A stretch of 52,024 nt of DNA from Bacilli bacterium (GTDB lineage Bacteria > Bacillota_I > Bacilli_A > RF39 > UBA660). A program made the position numbers and the translations under genes. The stretch is from positions 1 to 52,024 of the forward strand of contig JAFRIU010000017.1 of the NCBI GenBank assembly GCA_017432645.1, written 5' to 3'. Below, piece by piece: positions 1 to 52,024 of the stretch. The notes beneath the pieces were generated by a model. The model did not search any database, was not told the origin of the DNA, and was given only the letters and a program-made list of their open reading frames with translations. Position 1 is the stretch's first letter. Each line of letters opens with the position of its first letter.

Positions 1-214
1 AGTTTTCTACAAATTTTTCTTTATCGATTCGATATAATCCACATGTTCTTAAATATACCAAATCAATAGAGTCTTCCATCGCAGCATCTGCTGTTTCTTT
101 TACTAAGTAGTAGTCTAATTCACTACCTGTTGAATAATTGGTTAGTAAATTAATCATTAGTAAAGCAATCACACTAAGTAGAATGATTCCGACTGTTAAT
201 ATTCCTTTATTCAT
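1..214 (-). CDS. TadE/DUF5411-like small membrane protein, 3' part missing
   Basis: The first 71 residues are visible; the gene runs off the left edge. It begins MNKGILTVGIILLSV, with one N-terminal hydrophobic helix (about residues 4-26), followed by NYSTGSELDYYLVKETADAA, an acidic amphipathic stretch as in TadE-like or DUF5411-like pseudopilin proteins. The ATG at 212-214 follows AAGGAGAG at a good distance and overlaps the stop of the upstream Cys-rich gene by 8 bases, so the two are translationally coupled. It is the last visible gene of the sortase locus. The family assignment rests on the N-terminus only and is a guess; that it is a small membrane-anchored protein of this locus is well supported. 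Confidence 0.6.
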   Translation of the reverse strand, partial: MNKGILTVGIILLSVIALLMINLLTNYSTGSELDYYLVKETADAAMEDSIDLVYLRTCGLYRIDKEKFVEN

Positions 215-13925: not shown

Positions 13926-13958
13926 CAAAAGAACCAATTTCTTTCTATTGGTTCTTTT
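13926..13958 (-). terminator. Terminator of the glucan synthase gene
   Basis: Stem GAACCAAT/ATTGGTTC (13947-13954 with 13931-13938), 8-base loop, then TTTTGTT on minus. The TAG stop (13945-13947) overlaps the loop and stem edge. A -10-like TATAAT (13919-13924) follows and may serve the next gene, without a recognisable -35. Confidence 0.82.
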
Positions 13959-16900
13959 CTTTTGATAGAGTTACTACCACTGAATGCTCTTTTGCATCTT
14001 TTACAAGAGAAATATAAGAAGTAGATATTTCTTTTCCATCTAATACTATACTCTCTTTTGTTCCTTTTTGAATTTCAATATTGTAAATGGTATCAAAGTA
14101 ATGATAAACCATACGATAGCCATCCCATGAAGTTGGCATATTTGGTTCTATACTTATTTTATTTCCATGTCTTTTTAAACCTAATATTTCTTCAATTGCT
14201 ACTCTATAATACCATCCTGCAGAACCGGTATACCAAGTCCAACCACCTCTTCCTGCGAAATGAGGTGCAGAATAGATATCTGCTGCGATAACGTAAGGCT
14301 CTACTCGATATTTTTCTACCATAGCTATATCCTTCGTACGATTCATTGGGTTAATCATTTGATAGTATTCATATGCTCTATCAGAATATCCTGCTTTCAT
14401 TAGAGCCATTATATACCAAGCCGTAGCGTGAGTATATTGTCCTCCATTTTCTCTGATTCCTTCTGGATAATTCATAATGTATCCAGGATTGTTCAAAGAC
14501 TTTGAAAAAGCTGGAGTTAATAGTTTAATGATACGATTTTTCTTATCTACTAATTGATCTTCAACAGATGCAATTGCCTTTTCTTCTTTTTCTTTTGGTG
14601 CAACTTCACTAAGAACAGAAAAGCTTTGTGAAATTAAGTCAATCTTACATTCACTGTTTTCATGACTACCTAGTGGATCTCCATTATCAAAGAATGCTCT
14701 TAAATAGTATGATCCGTCCCAAGCTTTCTTATTTAAGTTTTCTTTTAATGTTTCATTGAAACTTGTGTATTCCTCAACGTCTAAAGATTTGTCGTGTTTT
14801 TTCAATATTTTGACAAAAGAATCGATACAGTTATAAAGGAAGAATCCTAACCATACACTTTCTCCTTTTCCTTTGATTCCTACCAAGTTCATACCATCGT
14901 TCCAGTCTCCTCCACCCATCAAAGGAAGCTTATGACGACCCATAGAATGCATCGCTAATTGGATAGAGTTTAAGCAGTGATCTAATAAAGGTACTTTCTT
15001 TTCAGAGTAAGAGAAATTAATTCCTTTTTCATTTTCATATTCACTTAGTTTTTCTCCCTGAATATATGGAACTAATTCTTCTAATATCTTGTAGTCTTCT
15101 GTTACTTCAATATAGTGTGTCGTAGCGTAAACTAACCATAGATAATCATCTTTAAATTTGCTTCTTAAACCAAAGTGATTCTTTTCATGCCACCAGTGTA
15201 AGACATCTCCTTCTTCAAATTGATGAGCAGCATTAATTAAAATCTGCTTCTTTGTCTTCTCACTGTCGACAGTTACAATATTCATAGCATCTTGTAATTG
15301 GTCACGATAACCGAAAGCACCACTTACTTGATAGAAACCTGATCTTGCTAGCATTCTAGAAGCGATGGTTTGGTATAAGTACCAACCATTGGTCATATAG
15401 TCAAAACTACTATCTGGAGTTTTTACTTGAATTGATCCTAATATTTGATTCCAATTTTCTTTTACTTTTCTTAACTCTTTTTTACAGTTAGATACATCTG
15501 TATATTTATGGATTAATTCTAAGTTCTTTCTATCACTATATCCACAGCCTAAAACAAAAGCAATTGTCTTTTCTTCTTCTGGTTCAAAAGTAGTAGAAAA
15601 ATCAATACTCTTTACAAGCATCTTATTACATTCAGCCTTTTCTATTTTTTCAGAAGAAGACATGAAGACGTTAACATCTCCGTAATAGATACTATAAACA
15701 TTTCTCATTTTTAGGTAATTATCTTTTTGAAGGAATTCCGTTAAGATACGGCGGGCTGTTTTTTCCTCAAAATTACCAAATGTTGGATTAATCCAGAAGG
15801 TAATATCTAACTTAGATTTTTCTTTTTTCTTATTCGTTAGTTTTAATAAATAGATTTTGACAGTATCTTCAGAAGCAACAAACTCTGTTACTTCTTGTTT
15901 GAACTCTTTGGTTTCACTTTCTAAAACACTATAACCAAAACCATGTGTACACTTTTCAGGATCAAATGTTTTTTCATTAAAGTAGAATCCCTCACTCTTG
16001 TCATTCGATACCATGTCGTTTGTCCAAGAAGTAATCTTAAATTCTCCTGAGTTGTATGCGTATGTGTATCCACAACCATTGTTCGTTATTATCGTACCAA
16101 AGTTTTCATTGGCAATGATATTACTCCATGGAGTTGGGGTGTCTTTTTTATAAATGACATATTCTTTTCCATTATTCTTAAATCCACCATATCCATTGTT
16201 GAAAGTAATTTTCTCATCCATTTCTAATGGAATATTTTCTTGTTTTGAATAAATTGGATAATCGTGTATCTTATTTACTTTTTGTAATTCTTCTACGGCC
16301 TCTTTTAAAACAAGGTGATCTTTTGCTACAAAACGGATTCTTGGCACAATGTTCAATAAGCTTCTGTCTTCCTCAGTAATGTCTGAGCTAGAAATTAATG
16401 TAACACTACCTGGTATATGATAGAAACTATTTAGACTATAAATTCTGTAAAGTTCCTTATCCACTTCTTCTTTAATAATCTTAGCAAATTCATCTTTCTC
16501 ACTATTAATAATAATGATATCTACGAATATGGATTTGCTTTTGTAGTATTCAAATAATTTCAATATTTCTCTTACAAAGCTCATATCACTTACATCATGA
16601 ATTTCTACACTGATAATTGGACGATCTCCACTAATTCCAAACTTCCATAGACCTGTTTGCCCTAGGGCATTTTTTCTTAATAAGTTCATTCTTTCTTCAC
16701 TCATAGAAATTCGCGTTGTTTGATATAAATAATTCAACATGATATGGAATGTTCTCATATCTTGTCCTGAAATATTTAGATTCTTGGTATCAATTACATT
16801 CATTAAAGTAGAAATCTGGAATGTTCTTTCTAATTCTTGTGTAGAACTATAGTAATTGATAATTTCATCAATCTGTTCTCTACTTCTACCAAATCCTACC

Positions 16901-19900
16901 AATAAGTAGACCGTAACCGAATCATTGGCTGGAACTATTATTTTATTTCTTAGAGAAAGAACAGGATCTAGGTTATCTCCAGCATAGTTAGAAAGATTCT
17001 TAGAGAATGCATCGGCATCATGTAGATTATGATTTCTTCCTAAGAAGACATCTCTTTCTGTTTCATAAGAGTATTTTTCTAGTGGTTCTTCTAATATCAT
17101 TCTAGTTACCATATAACTGTTAATATTAGAATCTCCTCTACTCTTTCTTCTGGCAATCAAACTATCTGTTTTACTATCAAATTCTGTTTTTAAGAACATA
17201 TTGTTGAAAACTCTATGACTGACATCATCCATGTTTTCAGAAAGAATTGGCTCTGTATAACTTGTAAGTTCAAGTTCTTTGTCTTCTTCCCCTTCATTTT
17301 TTAGGGTAATTTTACGAACTTCGGCATGATGATTCTTACATACGACAATTTCTGTCTTAGTGAAAATATCATGATCTTTTCTTAAGAATTTAATCTTATC
17401 AGAAGCAAATACCACTTCATATTTTTCTGGCATTTCATTCATTGGTGCATAGGTATTACTCCAAACCATATCATTAGAAGTATCTTTCATGAATAAGAAA
17501 ATACCATATTCTAATTCTGTTACTTTACGATAACGGTTTAACTGCAAAGTACGATATCTAGAGAAACTATTTCCTCTATCATTCATGATAAGAGAGTATT
17601 TCTTATTTGATAAAACTGACATTTCTGGCAAATACGAAAGACTGTCAAAGGCACGAATATCATTTTCGATGACTCCTTTTTTATAATTATACTTTTTATA
17701 TTTTGCCATTTTTAAGTCTATATTAGTCTTGACCTGAACTTTTTCCTTCAATAATAATTCAAATGTACGAACATTGACATTTTCATGGAAATAGTTTTTC
17801 ATGACTCCTTCTTTTAGATAGTTAGCAAGTCCCATTAAAGCCATTCCTTGATGGTGAGCAAAATATGCTTTTACGACTCCCTTATTATCATAATCATAGG
17901 CTTCATATAAACCGTAAGTAGATTCCATTCCTAATTCTTTGAATTTTTGAATATTCTCATACACATCTTCTGGGAATAATTCTAATGCCATGATAGAAGA
18001 ATATGGAGATAATACAATCCTATTTTCTTTATCTTCTTTGGCCTTTAGGTATGGAACAGCAAATGCTTTGTATTTGTAGTTTAGGGCGTTATCTAATTCA
18101 TTATAGGCTGATTCTGAAATTCCCCATGGTAATTTGTAATCTACCTTTCCTATGTAATCTTTTTGACAGAAATGTGCAAAAGAATAGGATTCATCAATTA
18201 GAGTATTTGGATAATTTCTCATGAATAATAATGGCATGTAATACTCAAAGGCTGTTCCTGACCAAGAAATTAATCCTTTTCTACCTTTGTAAGTAGTAAG
18301 AGATTTTTCTAGAGCGAACCAGTGCTTATTATCTACTTCTCCTAAACAAATTGCTAGATAGCTTGTTAGTCTAGATTCACTAGCAAATTTATTGTAATTA
18401 TAAGTAGAAAGCTTTCCATCATCTTCATCATAACCTATACTGAAGATTTCCTTTTTCGTATATAGTTTTTTAAAGTTTGTATTTTTAATTAATCTATCAC
18501 ATAGTTTTACTAATGTTTCTTCTTCATTTTTATTTAAAAATTCTCTTGCAATGACTAAGCAGGCAATTAAGTTTCCAGAGTCTACCGTTGAAACAAAGTG
18601 AGGTGGTAATACCTTCTTGGTCTTTATGTTATACCAGTTAAATAGATGACCATGCCATTTTTCTAGAGAATCTATTGATTTTAGAATTTTTTCTAGAAGG
18701 AAAATGGTTTCTTTTTTATCAATAAACTCAAATTCATAAGCTGCAATAACACTTGTTAAAGAATATCCAATAGCTGTTGGAGAAGTTCTTACATCTGCTT
18801 TTTCTTCTCTATTCTCTTGATAGTTGTCAGGAATTAGATAATTATATTCTTCATTTAAATAGTCTTCAAAATAGCTCCAAGTTTTCTTTGCTAAAGACTC
18901 TAGTTCTTGAACTTTTTTATCTTTTAGCTCCACTTTTGTGAAAAGATTATCTTGGCTAATATACCATAATACAAATGGTGCACTTAAGAACATGGCAGCA
19001 ATGACATAGGCAAGGTAATTTTCTCTCCAAATACCAAGTGCAATAAATAAAATAGCAGCTATGATATTTGGTATGAAATTACGGATATAGCTTTTCAAAC
19101 TGTTGTCGCTTGTTTTTTCTGCTTCTTCGGCAGTAATCCAGTTTAGTAAATTCTTATGAGAAATGAATAAACGATACAAGGTGCGGAAGAAAGCATCCAT
19201 ATATAATTTAGTATAGTAAGGAAGAGTTGCAAAAGTGATATATGCTCTTAATAATATACTTCTTGCACCATAATATAAGTTTTTGTAATAGATCTCTTTG
19301 ATTCCTTTTCTTTGACGATTCATTTTACTACGTAAGAAAAAGATAATGGATATAGCAATTTCTAAGAAAACTAATCCTGTCCAGCAAAGAGCGTATGGTA
19401 AGGTTCCATAGCATGCTAAGAATAAAACAAGTAATAGCATTGGATGTAGGAACATACGAATGATATTATCTAGTACTTTATACTTTCCAAGGAGAGTAAT
19501 TGGATTTTTTACTTTCTTTAATTGTTTGTTTCTTACTTTTGAAAATAACCAACCAATAATTTGAGTATCTCCTCTTGCCCATCTATGTTGTCTACTAGAA
19601 TCTGCTAGAAATTTAGCAGGGAAATCATCCATTAATTCAATGTCTGAAACAAAGGCACAACGTAAGTAGTTTCCTTCAATTAAGTCGTGAGATAATATCA
19701 AGTTATCTGGGAAAGTTTCTGCTAGTACTTTTTGGAATACTTCTAGATCATAGATTCCTTTTCCAATAAAGCTTCCTTCTTGGAAACAGTCTTGATAGAA
19801 GTTTGGTAAAGCAAAGGTATAGCTGTCAAATCCTCCTATTCCAGCAAAGACTTGACTATAAATACTCTTATTCGTTGATTCAATGTCTACACTAACACGT

Positions 19901-21588
19901 GGTTGCATGATTCCATAACCATGAATTACCTTTGTCTTTTCTTTATTTAAAACCGGCCTATTCATAGGATGTGCCATAGCACCTACTAAATTTAAAGCGG
20001 AATTTAGGACTAATTTCGTATCTACATCTAGTGTAATTACATATTTAATTCCTAATTTTTTTCCATGAAGCATATTTACATTAAAGTATTTTTTCTCATC
20101 AATAGCTTCTCCCAATAATACTTTATTAAAATGTAAAAGAGCCCCTCTTTTTCTTTCATAACCTAAGAAACTATTTTCTTTTGGATTCCAAATTCTTTTT
20201 CGATAAATGAAATAGAATAATTCTTTTTTATACTTTTCATTTAACTTTTTAGCATACTTCTCTCCAAATTTCATAATTTCTTCATCATAAGGCATTTCTT
20301 TAGAGTTTTCTGCTTTTACATCACCTAGTAATGTAAAATATAGGTTGTCTGTTTTGTTGATTAAATAGAATGTTTCCAATACATCAAACATCTTTTTTAT
20401 TTTTTCCGTATTAGAAACGATACTTGGCATAACTACCATTGTCTTGGATTCTTCTGGAATTCCCTTTGAATAATCCAATTTTGGTATATGAGTAATGTGT
20501 ACTATATGTACTAATATTTCGTTTAAAATTTGACTGATTAATTGACCAAGTGGAATGCATAAAATAAGAAAGCCAATTACTCTAGGCTTTATAAAATAAG
20601 CAGATAAAAAATAAGATGAGCCAAAGGTTAATAATGTTAAAAAGATAAGATAAAAAGCCATCCTAAGAGCACTATTTGGCTCTTTAAATAATTGGAAACC
20701 AATATGTTCTTCTGGATTAAATATTTTTTCTAAATACTGATATTCTGACATATGATTCTTCTTAGCTAATTTTACTAGTTGACGTCTGTAGTTGAATTTA
20801 GAATCTACTGTCATGTTCTTATAATTTGGACTAGTTAATAGTAGTCTTTCTGTTTTAGAAACCTTCTCATATAACTCTTCTAAGGAATATTCAAAAAAGT
20901 CTTTCAAATCATTAAAAATATTGGAAATTAAAATATTATTATCAATATTCTTTTGATATTCTTCATTTAATAATTCTTTTAAACTTACATTGTGAGATTT
21001 TAAATATTCATTATATTCTTTAAATAGTTCATCACTATTGTTTCCAACTCGGTATAATTGATTATTGATTTCAAATAAAAAATATGAATTGCTGTTGATA
21101 TCAAATTTTTCTGGAATAAAATCTTTTAATTCCAAGGTGTTATGATTTTTGATAATATTTGAAACATTTTCTCGAATTTCTAATCTTTGATATTCCTCAC
21201 GACATAATTGATTTAATCTTTCTGTATAAAGAAAGATAAGTGTAGGAAAAACTGCAGATAATTCTTGATATGTAAAAACTTTTCTATTATCTTTTTGATA
21301 TTTTCTTAATTCTTCTACTAATATTTTAAAACTAACATTATAGTTTTTACTGTTTACTATTTCTCTTAAAAAATAGTAGTTTTGATGAATCTTTTTGATA
21401 TCTTTTTTTAAATTCTTCTTCGAATTTAAAATGTTATTTTTATGTTCTACTAATATATAGTAATTATCAATTAACCATTCATTTGTAATCTCCACATATT
21501 CGCGATTTTTGGTTTTGTTTACTAAAAAATTATAGTATTCTGTTATATCATTAAAATCGCTAAAAAACTTTTTTATTCGGTTATCCAT
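13945..21588 (-). CDS. Cyclic beta-1,2-glucan synthase-like protein (GT84, glycoamylase-like, GH94)
   Basis: 2547 residues, matching the 2500-2900 of ChvB/NdvB-type enzymes, which make cyclic beta-1,2-glucan. Domain order: N-terminal region (1-310); membrane helices around 315-355; GT84 glycosyltransferase with TLDVDTKL (D-x-D, about 520) and QHRWARGD (about 665, QxxRW); membrane helices about 720-770 and 845-880; a glycoamylase-like domain with AYFAHHQGMALMG (about 1245); then the phosphorylase half with SGAFGYRDQLQDAM (about 2090, putative general acid Asp) and MGGGDWNDGMNLVGIKGKG (about 2225). ATG 21586-21588 is chosen because GGAGGAG lies 9 bases before it; a GTG six codons upstream is contained in that site. 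Single gene with its own promoter and terminator. The final product (cyclic or linear) cannot be read from sequence. Confidence 0.88.
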   Translation of the reverse strand: MDNRIKKFFSDFNDITEYYNFLVNKTKNREYVEITNEWLIDNYYILVEHKNNILNSKKNLKKDIKKIHQNYYFLREIVNSKNYNVSFKILVEELRKYQKDNRKVFTYQELSAVFPTLIFLYTERLNQLCREEYQRLEIRENVSNIIKNHNTLELKDFIPEKFDINSNSYFLFEINNQLYRVGNNSDELFKEYNEYLKSHNVSLKELLNEEYQKNIDNNILISNIFNDLKDFFEYSLEELYEKVSKTERLLLTSPNYKNMTVDSKFNYRRQLVKLAKKNHMSEYQYLEKIFNPEEHIGFQLFKEPNSALRMAFYLIFLTLLTFGSSYFLSAYFIKPRVIGFLILCIPLGQLISQILNEILVHIVHITHIPKLDYSKGIPEESKTMVVMPSIVSNTEKIKKMFDVLETFYLINKTDNLYFTLLGDVKAENSKEMPYDEEIMKFGEKYAKKLNEKYKKELFYFIYRKRIWNPKENSFLGYERKRGALLHFNKVLLGEAIDEKKYFNVNMLHGKKLGIKYVITLDVDTKLVLNSALNLVGAMAHPMNRPVLNKEKTKVIHGYGIMQPRVSVDIESTNKSIYSQVFAGIGGFDSYTFALPNFYQDCFQEGSFIGKGIYDLEVFQKVLAETFPDNLILSHDLIEGNYLRCAFVSDIELMDDFPAKFLADSSRQHRWARGDTQIIGWLFSKVRNKQLKKVKNPITLLGKYKVLDNIIRMFLHPMLLLVLFLACYGTLPYALCWTGLVFLEIAISIIFFLRSKMNRQRKGIKEIYYKNLYYGARSILLRAYITFATLPYYTKLYMDAFFRTLYRLFISHKNLLNWITAEEAEKTSDNSLKSYIRNFIPNIIAAILFIALGIWRENYLAYVIAAMFLSAPFVLWYISQDNLFTKVELKDKKVQELESLAKKTWSYFEDYLNEEYNYLIPDNYQENREEKADVRTSPTAIGYSLTSVIAAYEFEFIDKKETIFLLEKILKSIDSLEKWHGHLFNWYNIKTKKVLPPHFVSTVDSGNLIACLVIAREFLNKNEEETLVKLCDRLIKNTNFKKLYTKKEIFSIGYDEDDGKLSTYNYNKFASESRLTSYLAICLGEVDNKHWFALEKSLTTYKGRKGLISWSGTAFEYYMPLLFMRNYPNTLIDESYSFAHFCQKDYIGKVDYKLPWGISESAYNELDNALNYKYKAFAVPYLKAKEDKENRIVLSPYSSIMALELFPEDVYENIQKFKELGMESTYGLYEAYDYDNKGVVKAYFAHHQGMALMGLANYLKEGVMKNYFHENVNVRTFELLLKEKVQVKTNIDLKMAKYKKYNYKKGVIENDIRAFDSLSYLPEMSVLSNKKYSLIMNDRGNSFSRYRTLQLNRYRKVTELEYGIFLFMKDTSNDMVWSNTYAPMNEMPEKYEVVFASDKIKFLRKDHDIFTKTEIVVCKNHHAEVRKITLKNEGEEDKELELTSYTEPILSENMDDVSHRVFNNMFLKTEFDSKTDSLIARRKSRGDSNINSYMVTRMILEEPLEKYSYETERDVFLGRNHNLHDADAFSKNLSNYAGDNLDPVLSLRNKIIVPANDSVTVYLLVGFGRSREQIDEIINYYSSTQELERTFQISTLMNVIDTKNLNISGQDMRTFHIMLNYLYQTTRISMSEERMNLLRKNALGQTGLWKFGISGDRPIISVEIHDVSDMSFVREILKLFEYYKSKSIFVDIIIINSEKDEFAKIIKEEVDKELYRIYSLNSFYHIPGSVTLISSSDITEEDRSLLNIVPRIRFVAKDHLVLKEAVEELQKVNKIHDYPIYSKQENIPLEMDEKITFNNGYGGFKNNGKEYVIYKKDTPTPWSNIIANENFGTIITNNGCGYTYAYNSGEFKITSWTNDMVSNDKSEGFYFNEKTFDPEKCTHGFGYSVLESETKEFKQEVTEFVASEDTVKIYLLKLTNKKKEKSKLDITFWINPTFGNFEEKTARRILTEFLQKDNYLKMRNVYSIYYGDVNVFMSSSEKIEKAECNKMLVKSIDFSTTFEPEEEKTIAFVLGCGYSDRKNLELIHKYTDVSNCKKELRKVKENWNQILGSIQVKTPDSSFDYMTNGWYLYQTIASRMLARSGFYQVSGAFGYRDQLQDAMNIVTVDSEKTKKQILINAAHQFEEGDVLHWWHEKNHFGLRSKFKDDYLWLVYATTHYIEVTEDYKILEELVPYIQGEKLSEYENEKGINFSYSEKKVPLLDHCLNSIQLAMHSMGRHKLPLMGGGDWNDGMNLVGIKGKGESVWLGFFLYNCIDSFVKILKKHDKSLDVEEYTSFNETLKENLNKKAWDGSYYLRAFFDNGDPLGSHENSECKIDLISQSFSVLSEVAPKEKEEKAIASVEDQLVDKKNRIIKLLTPAFSKSLNNPGYIMNYPEGIRENGGQYTHATAWYIMALMKAGYSDRAYEYYQMINPMNRTKDIAMVEKYRVEPYVIAADIYSAPHFAGRGGWTWYTGSAGWYYRVAIEEILGLKRHGNKISIEPNMPTSWDGYRMVYHYFDTIYNIEIQKGTKESIVLDGKEISTSYISLVKDAKEHSVVVTLSKEKNQ

Positions 21589-21608
21589 GTAATACAACTC
21601 CTCCACCT

Positions 21609-40305: not shown

Positions 40306-41281
40306 ACTTTTTAAATGGAATAGGATAAATGATTGTTTTTTTGATCATTAGATCCTGTTGTCTGATATCTAGTATTCTTTCTACTGTTGGACTTGTATTT
40401 ACTACTACTTGTGGATATTTTACTTCTTTTAAGAACTTAGAAGCGTTCTCACTAGAGGAAGTAAAAATCGCAGCACTATAGGAAGAACCATTATATTGGA
40501 TTTCAGCAATTGCCTCATCCATGTCCATAACCGTCATAACATTTTCTCCATCTAGTTCGATTCCTTCTTTTACATATACTTGAATGTTAGGAGTGCTATC
40601 TATTATCTTCTTGATGAAGTCTAGATTGGAATCATCTTCTACATATAAATCAAAGTTTTCGTAACCACTGGTAATAGTTTTAACTGGAGATTTTTGCAAG
40701 ATATGATTTTGGAAGACTCTATCTCCGATTGCAACAACTAGACTAATATTAGCACAACGAGAGAAAAGAATATCATATTGATTGGTAATCAACATTTGCA
40801 TCATATTTTTAGAAACAGAGAATTTTTCTAATACTTCTTGGCAAATTTGTAGAACTAGTTGATTGGTTCCTAACATATATCCATCATTAATAAATAGCAT
40901 TCCATTTCCTGCCATGATATTTCTTAGGATCATTTCTAATAGTACATAACTATCTCCATTATGAATTATTGCAACATTTCCAATATCCATGACTTCTTTT
41001 CCATAAATCATATTTTCGGAATCCATTTTTTCTGATGTTATGACATCTCCATAAGCAAGTTTTTGTTTACTTAAATTATCAAAAATATTTTCTATGATTT
41101 GAAAATCAATTGCTTTCCCGTTTTTCCTTTTTTCATCTAATTTACTAGTTTTTAATAGTAAATCTTCATTTAACCGTATGGCTTTTTTGATGGCTTTAAA
41201 CACTTCTCTGGTATGTCCAATTAATGATTCTTTTTTTATCTCAACCATGTTTGCAATCATTTTTTCTATATTATCTTGCAT
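40304..41281 (-). CDS. ProA/aldehyde-dehydrogenase-fold protein without the catalytic Cys
   Basis: 325 residues. The closest pattern I recognise is glutamate-5-semialdehyde dehydrogenase (ProA): the MDEAIAEIQYNGSSYSAAIF to VVVNTSP stretch (about residues 253-298) matches ProA's AIxHIxxYGSxHSxAI to VYVNAS, and EMILRNIMAGNGMLFINDG matches the lysine/nucleotide-binding loop. The active-site Cys of ProA's C-N-A motif, which should lie near residue 225-235 (SNLDFIKKIIDSTPN), is missing, as is the IPRGG region. Length is also short (ProA about 415). It starts within the end of the 1487-residue gene (11-base overlap), so the two are coupled. It is probably a non-catalytic partner or nucleotide/ligand binder of that protein. 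Confidence 0.55.
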   Translation of the reverse strand: MQDNIEKMIANMVEIKKESLIGHTREVFKAIKKAIRLNEDLLLKTSKLDEKRKNGKAIDFQIIENIFDNLSKQKLAYGDVITSEKMDSENMIYGKEVMDIGNVAIIHNGDSYVLLEMILRNIMAGNGMLFINDGYMLGTNQLVLQICQEVLEKFSVSKNMMQMLITNQYDILFSRCANISLVVAIGDRVFQNHILQKSPVKTITSGYENFDLYVEDDSNLDFIKKIIDSTPNIQVYVKEGIELDGENVMTVMDMDEAIAEIQYNGSSYSAAIFTSSSENASKFLKEVKYPQVVVNTSPTVERILDIRQQDLMIKKTIIYPIPFKK

Positions 41282-44200
41282 GATGGATTCCCCTTTCTAT
41301 TTCTAATTCTTCTTGCTCTTTTCGTGCTTTTTGATACATTTTTTTCTGCTCTTCATTTAGAAGATGTAAATCTACTTCTTTTGATTCTATGATTTGATCT
41401 AATGCAAGTGACATTTGCATCAATACAATGTCTTCTATATTTTTTGCCTCATTACCATTCTTTATTTGAGTATTAAATAGTAAATCACCTATTACTACTT
41501 TATCCTCTTCTTTTTCATAGACAATTGCGAAATTTGGATGAAGAATAATTCTTGTTTTTGCTGGATCTAGTTCATAATTTTCAGCTATAGAAGTGACAAT
41601 ATGATGCGAATCATAATCGTCAGTAAAAGCACTAGAAAGGCTAGAATATCTTTTGGTAATCAGTTCTAAATTAATTAATGTTTCTAGCATGGTTTCATTA
41701 AAACTTTTATCATCCTGTTCTTTATAAGAATCATAAAATACCGTTAGGGTATCTTCTTTCGATCTTTTTATTTCTGAGTCTCTTTTTGAAGAATTCTCTG
41801 CCAGAATGTATTGAACAATACAGGCATCTGAATATGGACTTCTTCCTTCAGGAATCGGTCTTGTCCTTTCTGCATCTTGAGGAAGAGTTTTTAATGATCC
41901 AAGAATATTACTAAAGCCTTCTCCTGTCGTTATTTTTCGAAGACGAGATTTTTCATATTGCTCTTCTGTTATTTGTCCTTTTTCTAGTAGTTCTTGGTAC
42001 ATTCTAGCATCTTCTTCTAGAATTTCTTTAGCTGCTTGCTGATAAACTGCTAACACTTCATCTGTGAATTGGTTGCGAATTTCATGGTCTTCTTCTCCTT
42101 TTTTAATTCCATGAAGGTACATCTGTTTATCTGGTACTTCGATATTGTCAAAACATAATACATCCATATTTCTCCATACCCAACTTTGTGCAACAATGGT
42201 GCCTAATTCATCACGGACTACAAAAATACGTCCATGTTTACTGGTCATACTATGTCTCATGCAACTTTCTCCTGTCATGTGTAGACCTTGACAACAGTCA
42301 CTTCTATCTCCAATTGTTAGAGCTAGGCAGTCATCTAATCGTAGTATCTCATAAGAATACTCTCCCTTTTTACTTTCTACTCTTGGGATACTGCTAGTAA
42401 CTCTTTGTTTTCCCTCATTATATATTTCTTGTAACTCATCCCAATCTAACTGGCTATAACATCTCTTTCCTTCTGATAGATAGTTGTTTGTTTCTACTTT
42501 TGCCACTTCGCTAGCTGCTTGTTCATTTCCTGCATTTATATTCTTAAATCTATTTTTTTCTACCTGTCTGCAAGCAAAGTCGATGCTTAATAATTGCTTT
42601 TTATTGTTACTTTTATAGGCACATTCTATTTTGGCAAATTCACATTGAATTTTGGAAATATTTACTAGATATCTTTTATCCATTAAGATGGATTCATAAT
42701 TTCTTAAGAAAAACTCTCTAAAACCCGATTGATACTTTATATCAAAATCTGTAAAGTATTCTCCTGCTTTTTTAGGAGTCAAGATAGGAAGTTCTTCTTT
42801 TTGTTCTAATATTTTTCTCATCCATTTACAAGAAAGTGGGTAACTCTGGGCATTGATTCTTAGAGAGTAAGATCCATCTTTGTTTTTCTGATATATTTGC
42901 TCCAAAAGTCCTTCTTCTGATACTTTTTTTAGGCCTTCTTTTTCCATGGCTTCTTTTAATTTTTCATATAAGTTAAAAATCGTAACTATTTTTATAATTT
43001 GTTCTACTTCAACTTCTGGAATTTGATTTGTGTTAAAATCTACTTTTCCAAATTTACTTAGTTCTTCCATGATAGGAGCATAAGATGCATCTATTTTTTT
43101 AGGTGGATCCATAAATATTTTCTTTAATGGTTTCCAGATTGCATCTTCTTTTTCCTTTTTAGAGGCACTACTTTCGAACATTCCTAGAGCATATGCCATC
43201 TTTAACATAGCTTCTCTTGCTTTATCTGGTTTAGAAAAGTCTTCTATTTTCATTAATCTATTCCAAAGCCATCCTGTTTCCAAATATCTATCTACTTCTT
43301 CTATTGGAAAGTTTTCCATTACTACAAAGTCTGGTATGAATCTTTTTCCAGTTGCTAGATACCATTTTTCCATTAGAGATAATTGATTTTTCTCTATCAT
43401 TTTGCTTATCGTTTCTTGCTTCTGAATTCCTATAGACAAGGCTTTCTCTCCAAAAATTTCAAAGAATTCTTTTAACCTATTTCTATGTTCCTCTTTTCTT
43501 AGCATTGCTGCTTTTACTGATTTTCCTTCTAGGTGAGTAAGCCATTCAGGATGTTCTTGTAGTATTTCAAAACTCAATGGAATGTTTTCTTTACAATAGA
43601 AATAATTCTTTAGCCTATGTGGAGCATCTTCTTCCAAGAATAAATCTTTGCATTCTTCTTTTAAGAAAAATGGCGCATCTGTTTCTTGGTAATCTATTTC
43701 TCCGTTGTAGCAGCCTTCTTTTATTTTTGCTTCTACTTTCTTACATAATTCTTCAAAGCCTACATTTCTATATTCTTGAAAGATGGTAATATTCTCTATA
43801 TATCTTCCATATTTTTCACATAGTTTTAAAAATACTTCATTTTCTAATTGATAAAGACTTCTTTCTTTATCATAGTCTTTTAAATAAGATTCTGCTGCAT
43901 ATTTTTCATGAAAAGCTAATTTTAAATTTTTTTCTTTTAAAAAAGGAATAAGCTCCGGATATTTTTGAATGATTTCAGGGAATAGTTTTCCTTTGTAAAA
44001 GAGGTTTTCAATGCGTTCTTTTATTTCTGGTTTCATTTCTAACTCTTCTAAGTTAATAAATAAATCCGGATGTGCTTCTGAAAACTTTTTATTTTCTTTT
44101 AGGAATCTATACTTCGTCCACATTCCTGTTGTAATTTTTTGATATAAGCAGTCGTTAATTTCTTGTTTGATTTTTTCTATATCTGCAAAATCATCTTCAC

Positions 44201-45734
44201 TAATATGAATATCTGCTCGAATCAATCCTTCTCCATATTCACAGGATAATTCTAAAAAGCTATCTCTTCCTATTCTTTTTATGATATCTAACCAAGTATA
44301 GTGTTTTTCTTCCGTTTGAATAGGCTCAATTTTTAATTCATATTGGTTAAATGCATTGATAAAATCTTTTCCTTTTAGATAAGGTATATATTCTTTATGA
44401 TTGTATAATCCTTGAAAGAAAAGAGTAGTTTCATAGAAAAGCTTTTTCAATTCTGGTGGTGCGGATTCTTCCAAAAATATTTCTGGATATTGTTCATAAA
44501 ATCTATTAAAAGACCAATCAAAATAGTTTAAATATCTTCTGTTTGAATCGTGCAATAATTGGTAGCAAACCTCTTCATAAGTTAGATCTTTATTTGTAAA
44601 GGTAATATCTGGTATTTTACTTAAAAAGTCATTTAGTTTAATAAATGAGAAAAGATTTGTTTCTTGTTGCAGCCTTTTTATATTTTGAATACCAACCATT
44701 TCTATAGCTTGTTCCTGAGCTTTGTCCAATACAATAGTGGAATCATTATACTCCATTAATTCATCTATCCCACTTATTCTAGGTACAATCGTAAATAGGT
44801 TTCTCATCCACTCAGGAGCAAAATTCCATCTTTTAAAATCCCAATCATAATTTCCATTTATTGAATAATATACTTGATTGTATGTATGAGAAACGATATC
44901 TTCTCTGATTGCTCTTTTCAATTCCTTTTCTAATGATTCTAATGTAATTCCGGTTACTATATCATCTGCTGTGTTAAATGGATTTTGTTCCAGACGAACC
45001 AATGCATCTGATAATAAATAAGGATTTACCGATATGATATGTTCTATTGTATCTGGATATTTTTTTAATAATTCTATAAAAATAGGAGTTCCTATTCTCT
45101 TAATGATAATTCTTTTGGTTGTATCATAACCGAATGAATTTAAGAAATTTTCAATCGTAGGAATTTTTTTAAATTCATCTGGAGATTCCAATATATCAAA
45201 TAGTGTTAGATTTTTCTTATAATAATCTTTTAATAAACGTTCTGATATATTCAAGAATAAAATATCTGCATTGGTTTCTTGATAACGTTTTGGTATTTCT
45301 TCTAAAACAATAGGATCATTACCATATAATACATTGTTTCTTATAAAATTAGAGCAGATACTATCTACTTCATCTAGATTTCTTGCATTTATGATTGCAT
45401 TTTGAAAAAGAATATTATCTTTCCCATTCCAATAGTTTTCTGTTACCCAATTAATCGCTATCCATTTTTCTTTAGAATCTTTGTAATAATCTACTAATTC
45501 TGTTAAGGAAAAGCATCTCTGTAGTAAACTAGAAATATTTTCAAAAAATTTGCCTGATCTTTCTAGTTCTTGAATTTGATTTTTTGTTAGACTAGCTAGT
45601 TCATCCATATTTACCATAGAAGAAGATGCTATTCTTTGAAAAAGCTGATTTTGCTTTACAGAATTTGCTAGGTTGCTGATTTTCTTCTTCATATTCTCAA
45701 ATTTTAATGCAGAAAGCTTTAATTTTTTGATCAT
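41271..45734 (-). CDS. 1487-residue cytosolic protein of unknown function with internal repeats
   Basis: No family recognised; no signal peptide or membrane helix. Three related modules of about 140 residues start near residues 413, 553 and 695 (P-[ED]-[IL]-F-L-E-E-x-A-P, L-[KE]-x-x-F-Y then H-[KP]-E-[YW]-[IL]-x-x-L-[KE]-G-K). A basic central region follows. Near residues 1140-1165, LTIGDRSDCCQGLHMTGESC places CC and a third Cys in a short conserved-looking loop, then GRIFVVRDELGTIVAQSWVW (about 1170-1189) and FDNIEV look like a GNAT-type acyltransferase core. That last reading is a guess. The C-terminus is a charged helix. Good ribosome site and promoter; coupled to the ProA-like gene. Unlike the housekeeping genes around it, and a strong candidate for an undescribed system. 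Confidence 0.6.
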   Translation of the reverse strand: MIKKLKLSALKFENMKKKISNLANSVKQNQLFQRIASSSMVNMDELASLTKNQIQELERSGKFFENISSLLQRCFSLTELVDYYKDSKEKWIAINWVTENYWNGKDNILFQNAIINARNLDEVDSICSNFIRNNVLYGNDPIVLEEIPKRYQETNADILFLNISERLLKDYYKKNLTLFDILESPDEFKKIPTIENFLNSFGYDTTKRIIIKRIGTPIFIELLKKYPDTIEHIISVNPYLLSDALVRLEQNPFNTADDIVTGITLESLEKELKRAIREDIVSHTYNQVYYSINGNYDWDFKRWNFAPEWMRNLFTIVPRISGIDELMEYNDSTIVLDKAQEQAIEMVGIQNIKRLQQETNLFSFIKLNDFLSKIPDITFTNKDLTYEEVCYQLLHDSNRRYLNYFDWSFNRFYEQYPEIFLEESAPPELKKLFYETTLFFQGLYNHKEYIPYLKGKDFINAFNQYELKIEPIQTEEKHYTWLDIIKRIGRDSFLELSCEYGEGLIRADIHISEDDFADIEKIKQEINDCLYQKITTGMWTKYRFLKENKKFSEAHPDLFINLEELEMKPEIKERIENLFYKGKLFPEIIQKYPELIPFLKEKNLKLAFHEKYAAESYLKDYDKERSLYQLENEVFLKLCEKYGRYIENITIFQEYRNVGFEELCKKVEAKIKEGCYNGEIDYQETDAPFFLKEECKDLFLEEDAPHRLKNYFYCKENIPLSFEILQEHPEWLTHLEGKSVKAAMLRKEEHRNRLKEFFEIFGEKALSIGIQKQETISKMIEKNQLSLMEKWYLATGKRFIPDFVVMENFPIEEVDRYLETGWLWNRLMKIEDFSKPDKAREAMLKMAYALGMFESSASKKEKEDAIWKPLKKIFMDPPKKIDASYAPIMEELSKFGKVDFNTNQIPEVEVEQIIKIVTIFNLYEKLKEAMEKEGLKKVSEEGLLEQIYQKNKDGSYSLRINAQSYPLSCKWMRKILEQKEELPILTPKKAGEYFTDFDIKYQSGFREFFLRNYESILMDKRYLVNISKIQCEFAKIECAYKSNNKKQLLSIDFACRQVEKNRFKNINAGNEQAASEVAKVETNNYLSEGKRCYSQLDWDELQEIYNEGKQRVTSSIPRVESKKGEYSYEILRLDDCLALTIGDRSDCCQGLHMTGESCMRHSMTSKHGRIFVVRDELGTIVAQSWVWRNMDVLCFDNIEVPDKQMYLHGIKKGEEDHEIRNQFTDEVLAVYQQAAKEILEEDARMYQELLEKGQITEEQYEKSRLRKITTGEGFSNILGSLKTLPQDAERTRPIPEGRSPYSDACIVQYILAENSSKRDSEIKRSKEDTLTVFYDSYKEQDDKSFNETMLETLINLELITKRYSSLSSAFTDDYDSHHIVTSIAENYELDPAKTRIILHPNFAIVYEKEEDKVVIGDLLFNTQIKNGNEAKNIEDIVLMQMSLALDQIIESKEVDLHLLNEEQKKMYQKARKEQEELEIERGIHHAR

Positions 45735-46831: not shown

Positions 46832-48928
46832 TTATACTTTGGATAGTTTTTTATGGTTCTTCATTAGTTTCTTCACACCATGTGGATGTTTAAAAGCAAC
46901 ACTTACTAGTGTATTTGTTACTTCTACTACGCGTCCTGTTCCAAAAGTTTCATGGTAGACAAAATCACCTACTTGATAATCCACTTCTTCGTCTCTAAAC
47001 ATTTCTCCTGTTTCTACTTTTATCTCCTCTTTTTCTTTTGACTCTTCCTTAGTTGCTTCAATTAAATCTTGTGGAATTTCGGATAAAAAGCGACTTACCG
47101 GGTTAATTTGATCGTTTCCAAATAGGGTTCTACGTCTTGCATTTACTAAATATAAATCATCTTTTGCACGAGTTATCGCAACATACATTAGTCTTCTTTC
47201 TTCTTCTACGTCACTACTTTCCATTAGAGAATTCATATGAGGAAAGATTCCTTCTTCTAGGCCTATGACAAATACATGATTAAACTCTAATCCTTTTACA
47301 GAATGTACAGTCATTAAACTGATTCTATTGGGATCTTCTCGATATTCTTCTACATCACTAATTAAACTAATTTCTAATAAGAATTCTTCTAGTGATACTA
47401 ATCCTTCTTGTTCTTCAAAAGATTTTGTAATAGACTTGAATTCTTCTAGGTTTTCTAGTCTTACTTCTGCTTCTAGACTCTTTTCGCTTTCTAGTTCTTG
47501 TCTCATGCCAGAAGCGTCTAATACTTTATCAATCAACTCGGTTAGTGTTAATTCTTCTTTGATTTCCTTTAGTTTTTCGATCAGATTTTTAAATTCTAAT
47601 TCTTTTCCGGAAGAAATGGCTTCATACATACTAATTCCTTCTTGATCAGCAATCTCTGTTAAATTCTCTATTGTTTTTAAGCCAATTCCTCTTTTTGGAG
47701 TATTGATTACTCTTAGTAAAGATACATTATCTTTAGAATTGTGTATTAATCGCAAATAGGCTATTAGATCTTTGATTTCTTTTCTAGAATAGAAATAAAT
47801 ACTACCAATTACTTTATAAGGCAAATTCTCCTTTAGTAGTGCTTCTTCTATTACACGGGATTGGGCATTCGTACGATATAAAACGGCAATATCTTGATAG
47901 TTTTCTCCTTTACTTATCAATTCTTTTATTTTTTCAACAACATAAGATGTTTCATCTTTCTCATCGTAGGCACGATAATATTTGATTTTTTCTCCTTCTT
48001 CTTTTGCTGTCCATAAATTCTTATCTTTCCTTTGCTTATTGTTCTTTATAACTGCATTAGCGGCTTTTAGAATGGTACCAGTTGAGCGATAGTTTTGTTC
48101 TAAAAGAACGACTTTCGCATCTTTATAATCTTTTTCAAAATTTAAAATATTCTTATAATTTGCACCACGGAAGCTATAGATACTTTGAGAATCATCTCCT
48201 ACACAAGTGATATTTCTACTTTTTTCGCTTAGTAATTTCGTTAAAGTATATTGTGCTTCATTCGTATCTTGATATTCATCGATTAAGATATATTGATATA
48301 GGTCTTGATAGTCTTCTAAAACATCTTTGTAGTTTTGAAATAATTTAATCGGAAGTAAAAGCAAATCATCAAAGTCTACAGAGTTGTTTCTTTTCAATTT
48401 ATCTTCATATTTTTCATATACTTTTTGAATAACTTTTTCGTAGTCACTTATCGCATAACGTTCATACATAGCAGGAGAAATCATTTCATTCTTACAACTA
48501 CTAATTTTGTTTCGAATTGCTTTTGGATTATATATTTTGGGATCATATCCCATATCTTTGATAATTTTTTTCACAACCGTTAGAGAATCATCACTATCCA
48601 TAATGACTAGATTTTTTTCATATCCTAATCTTTGATAGTTTTCTCTTAATAGTTTTAAACCAAAGCTGTGGAAAGTAGAAATGGTTAATTTCTTGGCTTC
48701 TGTTCCAATTTGAGCATAGATTCTATCTTTCATTTCTTTGGCAGCTTTGTTTGTAAAAGTAATTGCCAGAATATGATAGGGTTTTACCTTTTTCTCTTCT
48801 AATAGATAAGCAATTTTCATGGTTAGAGTTTTTGTCTTTCCAGCACCAGCACCGGCAATGATTAATAAAGGTCCTTCATTATATAAAACTGCTTCTTTTT
48901 GACGATCATTTAGTTCTTCTAAATTCAT
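46832..48928 (-). CDS. pcrA: ATP-dependent DNA helicase PcrA/UvrD family
   Basis: 698 residues, about the family size. A 3'-5' superfamily 1A helicase for repair and replication restart. Motifs: LNDRQKEAVLYNEGPLLIIA (Q motif), AGAGAGKTKTL (Walker A, about residues 26-36; Ala for Ser), TFTNKAAKEM, STFHSFG, IDEYQDTNEAQY (Walker B), VGDDSQSIYSFRGA, LEQNYRST, and GLEFNHVFVIGLEEGIFPH. The C-terminus after 620 is charged, ending KLMKNHKKLSKV with a Tudor-like SVAFKHPHG strand pair. AGGAAGTG precedes the ATG. Confidence 0.95.
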   Translation of the reverse strand: MNLEELNDRQKEAVLYNEGPLLIIAGAGAGKTKTLTMKIAYLLEEKKVKPYHILAITFTNKAAKEMKDRIYAQIGTEAKKLTISTFHSFGLKLLRENYQRLGYEKNLVIMDSDDSLTVVKKIIKDMGYDPKIYNPKAIRNKISSCKNEMISPAMYERYAISDYEKVIQKVYEKYEDKLKRNNSVDFDDLLLLPIKLFQNYKDVLEDYQDLYQYILIDEYQDTNEAQYTLTKLLSEKSRNITCVGDDSQSIYSFRGANYKNILNFEKDYKDAKVVLLEQNYRSTGTILKAANAVIKNNKQRKDKNLWTAKEEGEKIKYYRAYDEKDETSYVVEKIKELISKGENYQDIAVLYRTNAQSRVIEEALLKENLPYKVIGSIYFYSRKEIKDLIAYLRLIHNSKDNVSLLRVINTPKRGIGLKTIENLTEIADQEGISMYEAISSGKELEFKNLIEKLKEIKEELTLTELIDKVLDASGMRQELESEKSLEAEVRLENLEEFKSITKSFEEQEGLVSLEEFLLEISLISDVEEYREDPNRISLMTVHSVKGLEFNHVFVIGLEEGIFPHMNSLMESSDVEEERRLMYVAITRAKDDLYLVNARRRTLFGNDQINPVSRFLSEIPQDLIEATKEESKEKEEIKVETGEMFRDEEVDYQVGDFVYHETFGTGRVVEVTNTLVSVAFKHPHGVKKLMKNHKKLSKV
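46836..46848 (-). repeat. 13-base direct repeat, copy B
   Basis: AACTATCCAAAGT on minus, here the last codons of pcrA (L-S-K-V). Same sequence and orientation as copy A, 46 bases between them. Confidence 0.7.
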
Positions 48929-49009: not shown

Positions 49010-49043
49010 TTCAAAAAAGAGAAAGGACCAACTATCCTTTCTT
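49010..49043 (-). terminator. Terminator of the prepilin-adhesin gene
   Basis: 8-bp stem AGAAAGGA/TCCTTTCT (49035-49042 with 49020-49027), 7-base loop, then CTTTTTT on minus. Confidence 0.85.
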
Positions 49044-49047
49044 CTTA

Positions 49048-51966
49048 TTAATCTAAATAACCACTTTTGTATATATATGCTCCGCTACTTTTTGTATTGT
49101 AGATATTATTAATGTTTGAAGTCGAGTGTGAATAATATAAGTCTATTCTGCTGCCAGATTTAGTTGCGGCACTTTGAAAAGCTGAGCTATAGTTGGTTGG
49201 ATTACTGTAGAAATTGATTTTTGCGTCTATTTTTGGAACACTATAGAAAAAGGAATATATATTTTTAGCATATACTTTCAGTGTTCCTATACTAGACCAT
49301 GTCGTAGCACTATGACCTGCTCCTGAAAACATATAGCTCATATCCGTTACATTTGATGTATTCCATGATGACAAATTACCTATACTCCATGTTGTAGCGC
49401 TATAACCACTTTTATTAAATGCTCCTGATAAACTTGTTACTTTCGAGGTGTTCCAAGTTGATACATCAATTTGAAAAGATGTTGCCTTATATCCTGCTTC
49501 ACTAAAGATACCAATCATAGTTGTTACGTTAGAAACATCCCAAGATGATAGGTCACCTACATTCCACGTTGTGGAATTATATCCTGACTCACTAAATGCA
49601 TAATGTAGCGAGGTTACTTTTGAAGTATTCCAGTTTGATAAATCTATATTAAAAACTGTAGAGTTAAATGCTGTACGTAGAAATATGGAAGCCATATTGG
49701 CCACTTTGGAAGTATCCCAATTTGATATATATCCTATGTCACATGTCCTATCACTATAACATGCTTCCGAAAACATATATTGCATCGAAGTTACTTTCGA
49801 TGTATCCCAATTTGATAAATTTCCTACTTCCCAGGATGTTGTGGTACGTCCTGCCTTATGGAACATATACTCCATATTAGTTGAACTATTTGTATTCCAG
49901 TTTGATAAATCTCCTACATTCCATGTGGTAGCACTATATCCTGATTCGTTGAACATTCCTCCTAGATCCCATACTTTTGAGGTGTCCCAATTGTTCAGAT
50001 TACCTATATTAAATGTTGTGGCAGAATAACCTGCTTTATTGAACATTGATCCCATATCTTCTACATTGGAAGTATTCCATGATGATAAATTTCCTATGGA
50101 ATATGTAGTAGCACTATAACCACTACTTCCAAACATACTAGCCATTGTTGTTACGCTTGAAGTATCAAAATTATTTAAACCAGTAATTGTAAATGTTGTG
50201 GCACTGTATCCAGCATCATAAAACATTCTGTACATGGATGTTACATGGCTTACATTTAATTTACTGACATCTATTGTTTTTACTTTTTTAAATTCAGAAA
50301 AAGCTTTACTGCTATCTATATTCGCAATTACTCCACCAACTTGTCCAATATATAGTGCTCTATTTCCGCTAGAACCTGTATACCATGCCATGACACTTCT
50401 ATTTTTTTTGGCTGATACATCCCAAGAAGTAGCACCACTTGGAATATTAAGATGGTCTACTATTGTGATACTTGTGAATTGTGATCTTGCAATACTGTAG
50501 CCAAATGTCTTGGATTCTGTATCATCATGCACCATTAACATATCAACGACAGTACATCTGACATAGAGTGTTTCACTTCCATCTGTTATGCTTGGAACAT
50601 AAACTCCTTCGCTTTCATAGCTATCTCCACTTCCATCTGCTTTTGTGTTATAGGAACAAGAATATCCTACTTTCTTTACTTTTGGAAGAGTAATTGATGA
50701 GGCAGACCAATTGGCAGTTAAAACTACCTCTTCATTCGCATTTCCTAGATTTTTTATATAGATTGCTTCTTGTCCGATTAAGCTTTCTCCGTCCCATGAT
50801 ACTAAGTTCTCTGTTGCTACTCCATATTGAGCAAGTGGAGAAAGATTTGTTCCTCGCCATCCACTAAATGCTTGATTTAATTGAATATTTGTTATTGTAC
50901 TTTCTTCATTTGTGATGCTTGCTCCTTGACTATTTGGATCAAAATTTACCGTAAATGTTTTTCGTGGAGCATTTAGTGTTACCGTTTCTTTATAGTTAGC
51001 ACTTGTTGGAGAACCATCTCCTAGAGTTCCTCCATTCATTATGTATCGAATATTATAGGTATATCCTTCTATGTCCCATTGTGCATACAAGGTCTTATTT
51101 CCTGTTGGACTATAAGTGCCATCAACACGATTAGTATAGGACTCTTCCTCATACCATCCTTCAAAAACAAATCCTTCTTTGGTTGGAGTTGGTGGAATAA
51201 AGGAATCTCCTTGTAGAGTTAGAATGCTGCTTGGCTCTATCACCCCTCCATCGGCATCTAATGTCGTTTGATAAACACTCTTTGAAATTACTTGGCTACG
51301 ATTTCCTGCAGCATCTTTTGCTACTAGATAATAAGTTCCCGCTTCTGTTATTTCGATGTCATTGATTACTAGTTCATGCGGTCTTCCCACAACTTCTGTA
51401 TATGCCACAGTCGTTTGTTTTGGATTAGATTTTCCAAAATAATAACCTGCTATTCCATCATCACTATCTCTTATCGTTAATATTCCTACTTGAGTAGGTG
51501 CTATATTATTTTGTGAAGATAATGTTACAATTGGAATTTCACTACTTTCTTTGCAATCATCTCTATTTATTCCTTCTTTGGTATAAACTGTTTCTCCGTT
51601 ACTTGTACATTGCAAACTAATTTTGTAGATATATTCATTTCCTTTCTTTTCTACTGCAACAAAGGTATTGCTACTTTTACAAGAAACATTATCTATTCCA
51701 ATATCTTTTAATAGGCCTTTCTTTTCTAGTTCATCATATTCGATGATTGCACAGCTTTCATCTCCGTCTATTACAAACAGATCTTCTTTATGAGAATCCA
51801 TATATAATTTTGCACTATATTCCATACTTTCTATATAATTGCTGTACTCTTTATTTTGATTTTTTTCTCGTATGTTACGAATTAATGGAATACTAATTCC
51901 CGTGATGATTCCTAGAATAACAATTACAATTAATAACTCTACTAATGTAAAACCTTTTTTCTTCAT
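49048..51966 (-). CDS. Type IV prepilin-like protein fused to InlB-like and DUF285 repeats
   Basis: 972 residues. The N-terminus KKKGFTLVELLIVIVILGII is a class III prepilin leader: basic leader, Gly/Phe cleavage site, Glu at +5, hydrophobic helix. A pseudopilin-like helix and Cys-bounded module (about 83-115, VSCKSSNTFVAVEKK to ISLQC) follow, then an Ig-like region (about 145-235; AGTYYLVAKDAAGN), InlB B-repeat-like strands (GFVFEGWYEE, TLYAQWD, FTVNFDPNSQGA; about 238-425), a linker, and 11 DUF285/BspA-type repeats (about 566-894) with W-[DN]-T-S-x-V-x-x-M-x-x-M-F. The tail has Ser/Tyr/Asn-rich strands, no anchor and no LPxTG. Likely an extracellular adhesin carried by a pilus-like system or pseudopilin export. 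No prepilin peptidase or pilus ATPase is in the window. Confidence 0.88.
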   Translation of the reverse strand: MKKKGFTLVELLIVIVILGIITGISIPLIRNIREKNQNKEYSNYIESMEYSAKLYMDSHKEDLFVIDGDESCAIIEYDELEKKGLLKDIGIDNVSCKSSNTFVAVEKKGNEYIYKISLQCTSNGETVYTKEGINRDDCKESSEIPIVTLSSQNNIAPTQVGILTIRDSDDGIAGYYFGKSNPKQTTVAYTEVVGRPHELVINDIEITEAGTYYLVAKDAAGNRSQVISKSVYQTTLDADGGVIEPSSILTLQGDSFIPPTPTKEGFVFEGWYEEESYTNRVDGTYSPTGNKTLYAQWDIEGYTYNIRYIMNGGTLGDGSPTSANYKETVTLNAPRKTFTVNFDPNSQGASITNEESTITNIQLNQAFSGWRGTNLSPLAQYGVATENLVSWDGESLIGQEAIYIKNLGNANEEVVLTANWSASSITLPKVKKVGYSCSYNTKADGSGDSYESEGVYVPSITDGSETLYVRCTVVDMLMVHDDTESKTFGYSIARSQFTSITIVDHLNIPSGATSWDVSAKKNRSVMAWYTGSSGNRALYIGQVGGVIANIDSSKAFSEFKKVKTIDVSKLNVSHVTSMYRMFYDAGYSATTFTITGLNNFDTSSVTTMASMFGSSGYSATTYSIGNLSSWNTSNVEDMGSMFNKAGYSATTFNIGNLNNWDTSKVWDLGGMFNESGYSATTWNVGDLSNWNTNSSTNMEYMFHKAGRTTTSWEVGNLSNWDTSKVTSMQYMFSEACYSDRTCDIGYISNWDTSKVANMASIFLRTAFNSTVFNIDLSNWNTSKVTSLHYAFSESGYNSTTWNVGDLSSWDVSNVTTMIGIFSEAGYKATSFQIDVSTWNTSKVTSLSGAFNKSGYSATTWSIGNLSSWNTSNVTDMSYMFSGAGHSATTWSSIGTLKVYAKNIYSFFYSVPKIDAKINFYSNPTNYSSAFQSAATKSGSRIDLYYSHSTSNINNIYNTKSSGAYIYKSGYLD
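49285..50271 (-). repeat. 11 tandem DUF285-type repeats of about 30 residues (90 bp)
   Basis: Units begin near residues 566, 597, 626, 656, 686, 716, 746, 775, 805, 834 and 864. Most are exactly 30 residues (range 29-31). Core N-L-S-x-W-[ND]-T-S-x-V-x-x-M-x-x-M-F, then [AS]-G-Y-S-A-T-T-x-x-[IV]-G. Units diverge at DNA level, so they are an old expansion. Confidence 0.85.
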
Positions 51967-51988
51967 AACATCACCCTATTCTCTTATA

Positions 51989-52016
51989 AGTATATCATGC
52001 CTTTTTTTTCTGTAAA
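51989..52016 (-). promoter_or_regulatory. Promoter of the prepilin-adhesin gene
   Basis: On minus: TTTACA (52011-52016), 16-base spacer, TATACT (51989-51994). A weak AGGGTG lies before the ATG. Confidence 0.6.
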
Positions 52017-52024
52017 AGAAAAAA

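Follow-up and report, generated by a model that had tools for sequence, protein, structure and literature searches.

The gene at the end of the window (the whole 52,024-nucleotide stretch analysed, contig C11 below) encodes a protein that is best described, from its sequence and predicted structure, as a modular pilin with a DUF285 tip. We propose that it acts as a modular minor pilin that would be cut by a PilD-like peptidase, built into a type IV filament, and used to display an InlB-like stalk and a DUF285 solenoid for ligand binding, and we assign this reading a probability of roughly 0.7. It is based on the leader, the order of the modules, the machinery genes, the predicted folds and the recurrence of the fusion, for which the evidence is given here. 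The features referred to in the text are as follows:

49048..51966 (−): modular prepilin with DUF285 tip, 972 aa, whole ORF (ORF list, Pfam, NCBIfam)
51884..52024 (−): 141-bp block with promoter, RBS and leader codons 1–27, identical at the start of contigs C29 and C41
51989..52016 (−): candidate sigma-70 promoter within the duplicated block, TTTACA-16-TATACT, the second hexamer being preceded by TG (position and joint-best score)
51892..51963 (−): class III prepilin leader with the beginning of the hydrophobic helix, residues 2–25, N_methyl (Pfam, NCBIfam)
51547..51966 (−): pilin module, residues 1–140, with a long helix (8–58) and strands 70–76, 102–108, 111–122 and 125–130 (alignment, model, profile)
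51079..51273 (−): InlB B-repeat/Flg_new domain, residues 232–296, the last carrier part in common with the C31 gene (Pfam, solved structures)
51067..51087 (−): breakpoint zone, about codons 294–300, beyond which only about half of the residues match the C31 gene, as against 92/100 codons before it
50542..51081 (−): second InlB-like stretch, residues 296–475, homologous to stretches of C18b and C10
49267..50274 (−): 11 DUF285/PARCEL repeats, about residues 565–900, predicted solenoid (Pfam, NCBIfam, motif count, model)
49020..49042 (−): terminator-like hairpin 3′ of the gene (sequence scan)
46832..48928 (−): pcrA/uvrD-type helicase, which lies outside the system and serves, as a conserved downstream neighbour, to locate the insertion site

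Leader, pilin module and repeats

The reading frame starts with an ATG at 51966 and runs to 49048 on the minus strand, with 972 codons uninterrupted by stops, which bears out the length given by the sequence-only reading. The combination of leader, InlB repeat and DUF285 repeats in this gene is a confirmed observation. The leader, MKKKG/FTLVE, has its predicted cleavage site after Gly5 and a Glu at +5. The N_methyl profile (PF07963) matches residues 2–25 with an E-value of 1.5e-7 and 31.2 bits against a cut-off of 21.2, and the protein also scores above the cut-off of the NCBIfam model TIGR02532 for GFxxxE prepilins, so that the prepilin leader noticed earlier stands at curated thresholds.

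Among 10 sequences aligned over their first 230 residues, G5, F6, T7, L8 and E10 were invariant, and Y44, K53, Y55, D62, F64, Cys72, Cys96 and Cys120, well past the leader, were also kept. An AlphaFold2 model of the pilin module, made from a 23-row alignment, has a single helix at residues 8–58 followed by four strands, with a mean pLDDT per ten-residue block of 84–97 for residues 11–140. Structure prediction had been proposed as a check on the leader, and the outcome was a pilin-type head (α1 plus a β-sheet) over residues 8–140 at a pLDDT of ≈90. In a sequence search against solved structures, residues 2–59 matched the pilin domain 9egp (E = 5e-6), and a profile of the pilin region found solved type IV pilins, mainly over the helix, with a best E-value of 1.4e-10; Streptococcus sanguinis PilE1 was among them (2e-8). 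Foldseek returned no significant match in the PDB for this model or for the full-length one described below, and the pilin fold is therefore argued from secondary structure and sequence.

Farther along the protein, there is one copy of the InlB B-repeat (Flg_new; residues 232–296, E = 7e-12). Among solved structures, 2y5p, a B-repeat of internalin B, matches residues 230–298 (E = 3e-4), and matches to solved internalin B repeats span up to residues 228–301. The second InlB-like stretch (residues 296–475) has no Pfam match. In the C-terminal part, DUF285 (PF03382) matches six stretches (E = 2e-78) and the PARCEL model TIGR02167 nine (E = 6.6e-38), and counting the repeat motif gives exactly 11 copies, at residues 571, 601, 631, 661, 691, 721, 751, 780, 810, 839 and 869, in units of 29–30 aa. 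The InlB-like part and the count of 11 DUF285 repeats in the earlier description were thus both correct. The full-length model shows a regular solenoid at ≈560–900 with a pLDDT mostly of 85–98, while residues 141–556 are mostly unmodelled. The “very long” adhesive rod that had been envisaged was overstated, as 11 solenoid coils with a typical rise would make an estimated rod of only ≈5 nm. The protein has no hydrophobic segment besides the N-terminal one, and a motif scan found no LPXTG-type signal or hydrophobic tail at its C-terminus; it is therefore not placed in the sortase-anchored class, although a sortase gene adjoins the locus on C29.

Three other large proteins are encoded in the window. 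That at 13945–21606 (2553 aa) has two GH94 supersandwich stretches, a GH94 catalytic domain and a glycoamylase-like domain (Pfam) and resembles enzymes of the cyclic β-glucan synthase type, at a size that is unusual for a 1-Mb genome. Those at 41271–45734 and 207–3368 (1487 and 1053 aa) have no Pfam match.

Pilus machinery and proposed display of the tip

All three genes whose absence from the genome had been named in advance as an argument against a prepilin were found by profile search. A PilD-like peptidase (A24_N, 3e-29; Peptidase_A24, 2.5e-10) is encoded on contig C42 next to a PilC-like gene (T2SSF, 5e-51), and a PilB-like ATPase (T2SSE, 3e-119) is encoded on C45. Paralogous prepilins had likewise been expected, and four complete small ones are present, two on C16 and one each on C2 and C47. 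PilM was not detected in the draft genome (1.07 Mb, 95% complete, with the usual caveat on claims of absence), while the same search gave matches in controls, nor was there a third T2SSE ATPase that could be PilT. With neither PilM nor a PilT candidate, the machine is therefore read, from its gene content, as a reduced, Com-like type IV filament system. The sole T2SSE match besides PilB lies in a Tad-like cluster on C41 (16000–21105), which comprises this second ATPase, apparently two TadB/C-type genes, and two CpaB-like paralogues.

An ordinary signal anchor at the N-terminus was ruled out by the curated-threshold leader, the PilB, PilC and PilD genes, the paralogous prepilins and the pilin-type head; by sequence and model, the protein carries a genuine prepilin carrier. 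The expectation that DUF285 repeats normally sit on other carriers holds in this genome, where the two DUF285 proteins with a complete N-terminus start with a signal anchor. Two further DUF285 proteins of this genome, C18b, which has a signal anchor, and C10, which is cut at its 5′ end, share 40–43% identity over ≈600 residues with the tip of the window gene. Since the carrier, in turn, is shared with the gene on C31 (see below), tips and carriers are mixed: at the sequence level, one kind of tip is found on different carriers, and one carrier with different tips.

For cleavage, polymerization, tip position and ligand binding of the window protein we draw on knowledge of the family. The PilD-like peptidase would cut the five-residue leader after Gly5, and through the exposed hydrophobic helix the pilin module would join a type IV filament made by the PilB- and PilC-like proteins. 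This would place the InlB-like stalk and the DUF285 solenoid on the cell exterior, most likely at the tip of the filament, where they could bind a host, microbial or food ligand.

The prepilin leader could also be merely a membrane anchor, in which case PilD may cut the protein, which would never be polymerized and would act as a membrane-tethered surface adhesin. The very large C-terminal load, the lack of a detected PilM or PilT-like gene, and the occurrence of the same kind of tip on a plain signal anchor in the other DUF285 proteins of the genome are consistent with such an arrangement. However, a mere anchor would not need the conserved Cys72, Cys96, Cys120 and AKLYxDS or the predicted pilin-head fold, and large modular pilins, such as S. 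sanguinis PilB, belong to pili (PMC8179133). We consider an anchor-only role unlikely.

ComEC (2.9e-41) is encoded on the same contig as PilC and PilD, and in G013, a genome of the same genus, comEA- and comEC-like ORFs (read by eye) lie ≈5 kb from a 1185-aa modular prepilin. Together with the minimal, Com-like machinery in which PilM was not detected, this would fit a pseudopilin-like subunit of a short Com-type secretion or DNA-uptake filament, with a tip for DNA or a component of the cell wall instead of a host surface. Such a role nevertheless appears quite improbable: variable surface proteins are the main known setting of DUF285/PARCEL repeats (PMC2996958), and the paralogues have very different tips, which agrees better with diverse ligands than with a conserved uptake role. 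A modular minor pilin remains the preferred reading.

Recurrence, shared carrier and variable tips

The first 241 residues have a match in 112 of the 145 genomes of the family, many in frames of 500–1600 aa, with the leader alone contributing to the weaker matches; within the genus, every one of the 39 genomes has related prepilins, many of them encoded by long open frames. A motif screen yielded 15 further prepilin–DUF285 fusion proteins in eight other genera, counts that are not frequencies, as the screen took in DUF285 proteins in stretches chosen for DUF285 content. When nine of the fusion proteins were checked against Pfam, seven, from seven genera, passed both the N_methyl and DUF285 cut-offs, the protein from G039 fell just under the N_methyl cut-off, and one of the two from G120 had no N_methyl match. 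Most other DUF285 proteins of the family in the screened stretches begin with a signal or anchor sequence, and none of 68 DUF285 proteins from viral contigs has a prepilin-like leader. Judged by these profile matches, the fusion recurs in at least seven other genera of the family and is therefore neither a one-off nor an assembly chimera.

Other kinds of large prepilin were seen in the family. G117, which also has five prepilin–DUF285 genes, encodes at least six paralogous prepilins of ≈780 aa (L082–L087, L081) with near-identical N-termini, β-propeller-like repeats and the same ending (FNFDISLTPN). In G153 (L239, 739–10688) and G151 (L241, 762–7212), very large prepilin genes (1630–1660 aa plus ≈1050 aa) form tandem pairs that are conserved at the 5′ ends and differ towards the 3′ ends. 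On contig C2 of G038, at about 118900–123800, DUF285 matches occur within an open frame of 7120 codons, possibly encoding a giant surface protein.

Only 58 bp separate the start of the window gene from the contig end, and the final 141 bases of C11 recur as the first 141 bases of both C29 and C41, a length that suggests a k-mer overlap at a branch of the assembly graph. Promoter-like sites in the region number 14, compared to 16.1 in shuffles, and it is the position and joint-best score, not the count, that argue for the candidate promoter in this block. The block has two upstream flanks and two bodies. The second body, on C31, begins within the equivalent of codon 194 and matches the window gene in 92 of 100 codons over codons 194–293, with five synonymous differences. 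Over residues 294–473, 92 of 180 residues agree, and there is little similarity further on; the C31 tip is without DUF285 and is Cys-rich at its end.

The gap before pcrA could be read in 18 relatives and contains no prepilin in any of them (18/18). In 17, a sortase operon, consisting of a surface protein or other gene, a sortase and a membrane protein, is located directly upstream of pcrA, usually at a distance of 56–211 bp; the one exception, G155, is also without a prepilin there. A matching operon is present on C29, which by this synteny is therefore most likely the native upstream neighbour of C11, while C41 (the rmuC side) pairs with C31 by elimination. The modular pilin gene would thus most likely occupy a spot that is empty in the 18 relatives. 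An invertible switch or a strain mixture is a less likely explanation for the C29 and C41 ends, as two real loci account more simply for the two flanks and two bodies and fit the synteny; a minority arrangement may occur at the C29/C41 junction. That the assembly artificially fused another gene's leader with a DUF285 protein at the end of the contig, as the short distance to that end and the 141 bp common to two other contigs might suggest, is very improbable, since two flanks and two bodies are expected for two real loci, the C29-type operon directly precedes pcrA in nearly all of these relatives, and other genera have this fusion unbroken in the interior of long contigs.

Prepilin leaders are also found at contig ends in several relatives (G159:C162 and C66; G165:C10; G177:C18 and C71; G169:C16; G179:C73). 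Their position there and in the window genome suggests that assemblies break at these repeated leaders and that the true copy numbers are higher than those counted.

Carriers (first 122 residues) and tips (last 300 residues) were compared for 25 genes from 12 genomes of the genus. Median carrier identity was 70% within and 47% between genomes. The genes had been selected for their resemblance to the window protein; this could raise carrier similarity in general, but would not raise it specifically within genomes. The within-genome mean was 0.71; shuffling the labels 2000 times gave 0.49, with no shuffle above 0.59. Tip identity within genomes was 0.27, compared to 0.26, which is the floor of forced alignment (0.25–0.27) and means that the tips are unrelated. 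DNA identity along most gene pairs was ≈0.7–1.0 for 0.8–2 kb and then 0.4–0.5. Recent duplication with tip replacement and carrier conversion both fit this pattern; selection on the tips alone would not by itself suffice for the synonymous agreement before the C11/C31 breakpoint.

In this multi-copy family, the promoter-plus-carrier blocks of one genome remain alike and the outer part is exchanged, which would provide several filament tips for one cell. Because the breakpoint is sharp and the insertion site is occupied here and empty in the relatives, we infer that the block moves by recombination. Tentatively, the family might be a dispersed, recombinase-free counterpart of the PilV shufflon, in which copying or conversion carries a promoter-plus-pilin block from one locus to another and new tips are attached to it, at the boundary of the InlB repeat in the case of the window genome, giving each species interchangeable filament-tip adhesins.

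Comparison with known systems

Modular type IV pilins that serve as adhesins are a described class (Raynaud et al. 2021, PMC8179133), and the idea of a prepilin–adhesin fusion is thus less new than it looked. The survey of modular pilins includes 264 architectures, the most extreme of 860 residues, and S. sanguinis PilB has a mass of 50.5 kDa (PMC8179133). The window protein shares with S. sanguinis PilB and PilC the class III leader, the small pilin module, the monoderm host, the expected processing by PilD, and a bulky functional domain that is not specific to pili and is grafted C-terminally, in this case Flg_new and DUF285. It differs from these proteins, which have vWA or lectin modules, by its InlB B-repeat and 11-unit DUF285 solenoid, its length of 972 aa and the many copies per genome with a common carrier.

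A constant pilin-type N-terminal part with variable C-terminal adhesin parts is also seen in the PilV tip adhesins of IncI shufflon plasmids (PMC5430464). Unlike in PilV, however, constancy and variability are distributed across paralogues rather than within one locus, with separate full-length genes at scattered loci. No Rci-type recombinase was found near the locus; the only two tyrosine recombinases of the genome (≈310 aa) are on C38 and C43, away from the contigs in question. There were no inverted repeats at the constant/variable junction near 51085, and a single pair was found at 50616/50833. On these two grounds, a strict shufflon was rejected.

Like the DUF285/PARCEL surface proteins (PF03382, TIGR02167), such as the lipoprotein LppQ, the window protein has tandem repeats of 25–30 residues that match the same profile and vary in their surface residues (PMC2996958). 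The described proteins are lipoproteins or have other membrane-targeting sequences, whereas the carrier here is a prepilin, and the PARCEL paper makes no mention of pilins (PMC2996958). With internalin B of Listeria, only the one B-repeat (Flg_new), detectable by sequence, is in common; no match to the internalin LRR region was reported. A literature search returned no paper joining prepilin with DUF285, or prepilin-type with “BspA family leucine-rich”. Going by the open papers searched, neither the DUF285 tip nor the multi-copy organization with constant carrier and variable tips has been described.

The fusion ties the widespread, functionally obscure DUF285/PARCEL repeat to a filament system, where exchangeable tips would be a plausible job for it, in a small-genome gut lineage that invests in many large pilins. 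The pattern of constant carriers and variable tips makes the diversification of pilus tips in monoderm gut bacteria a testable question.
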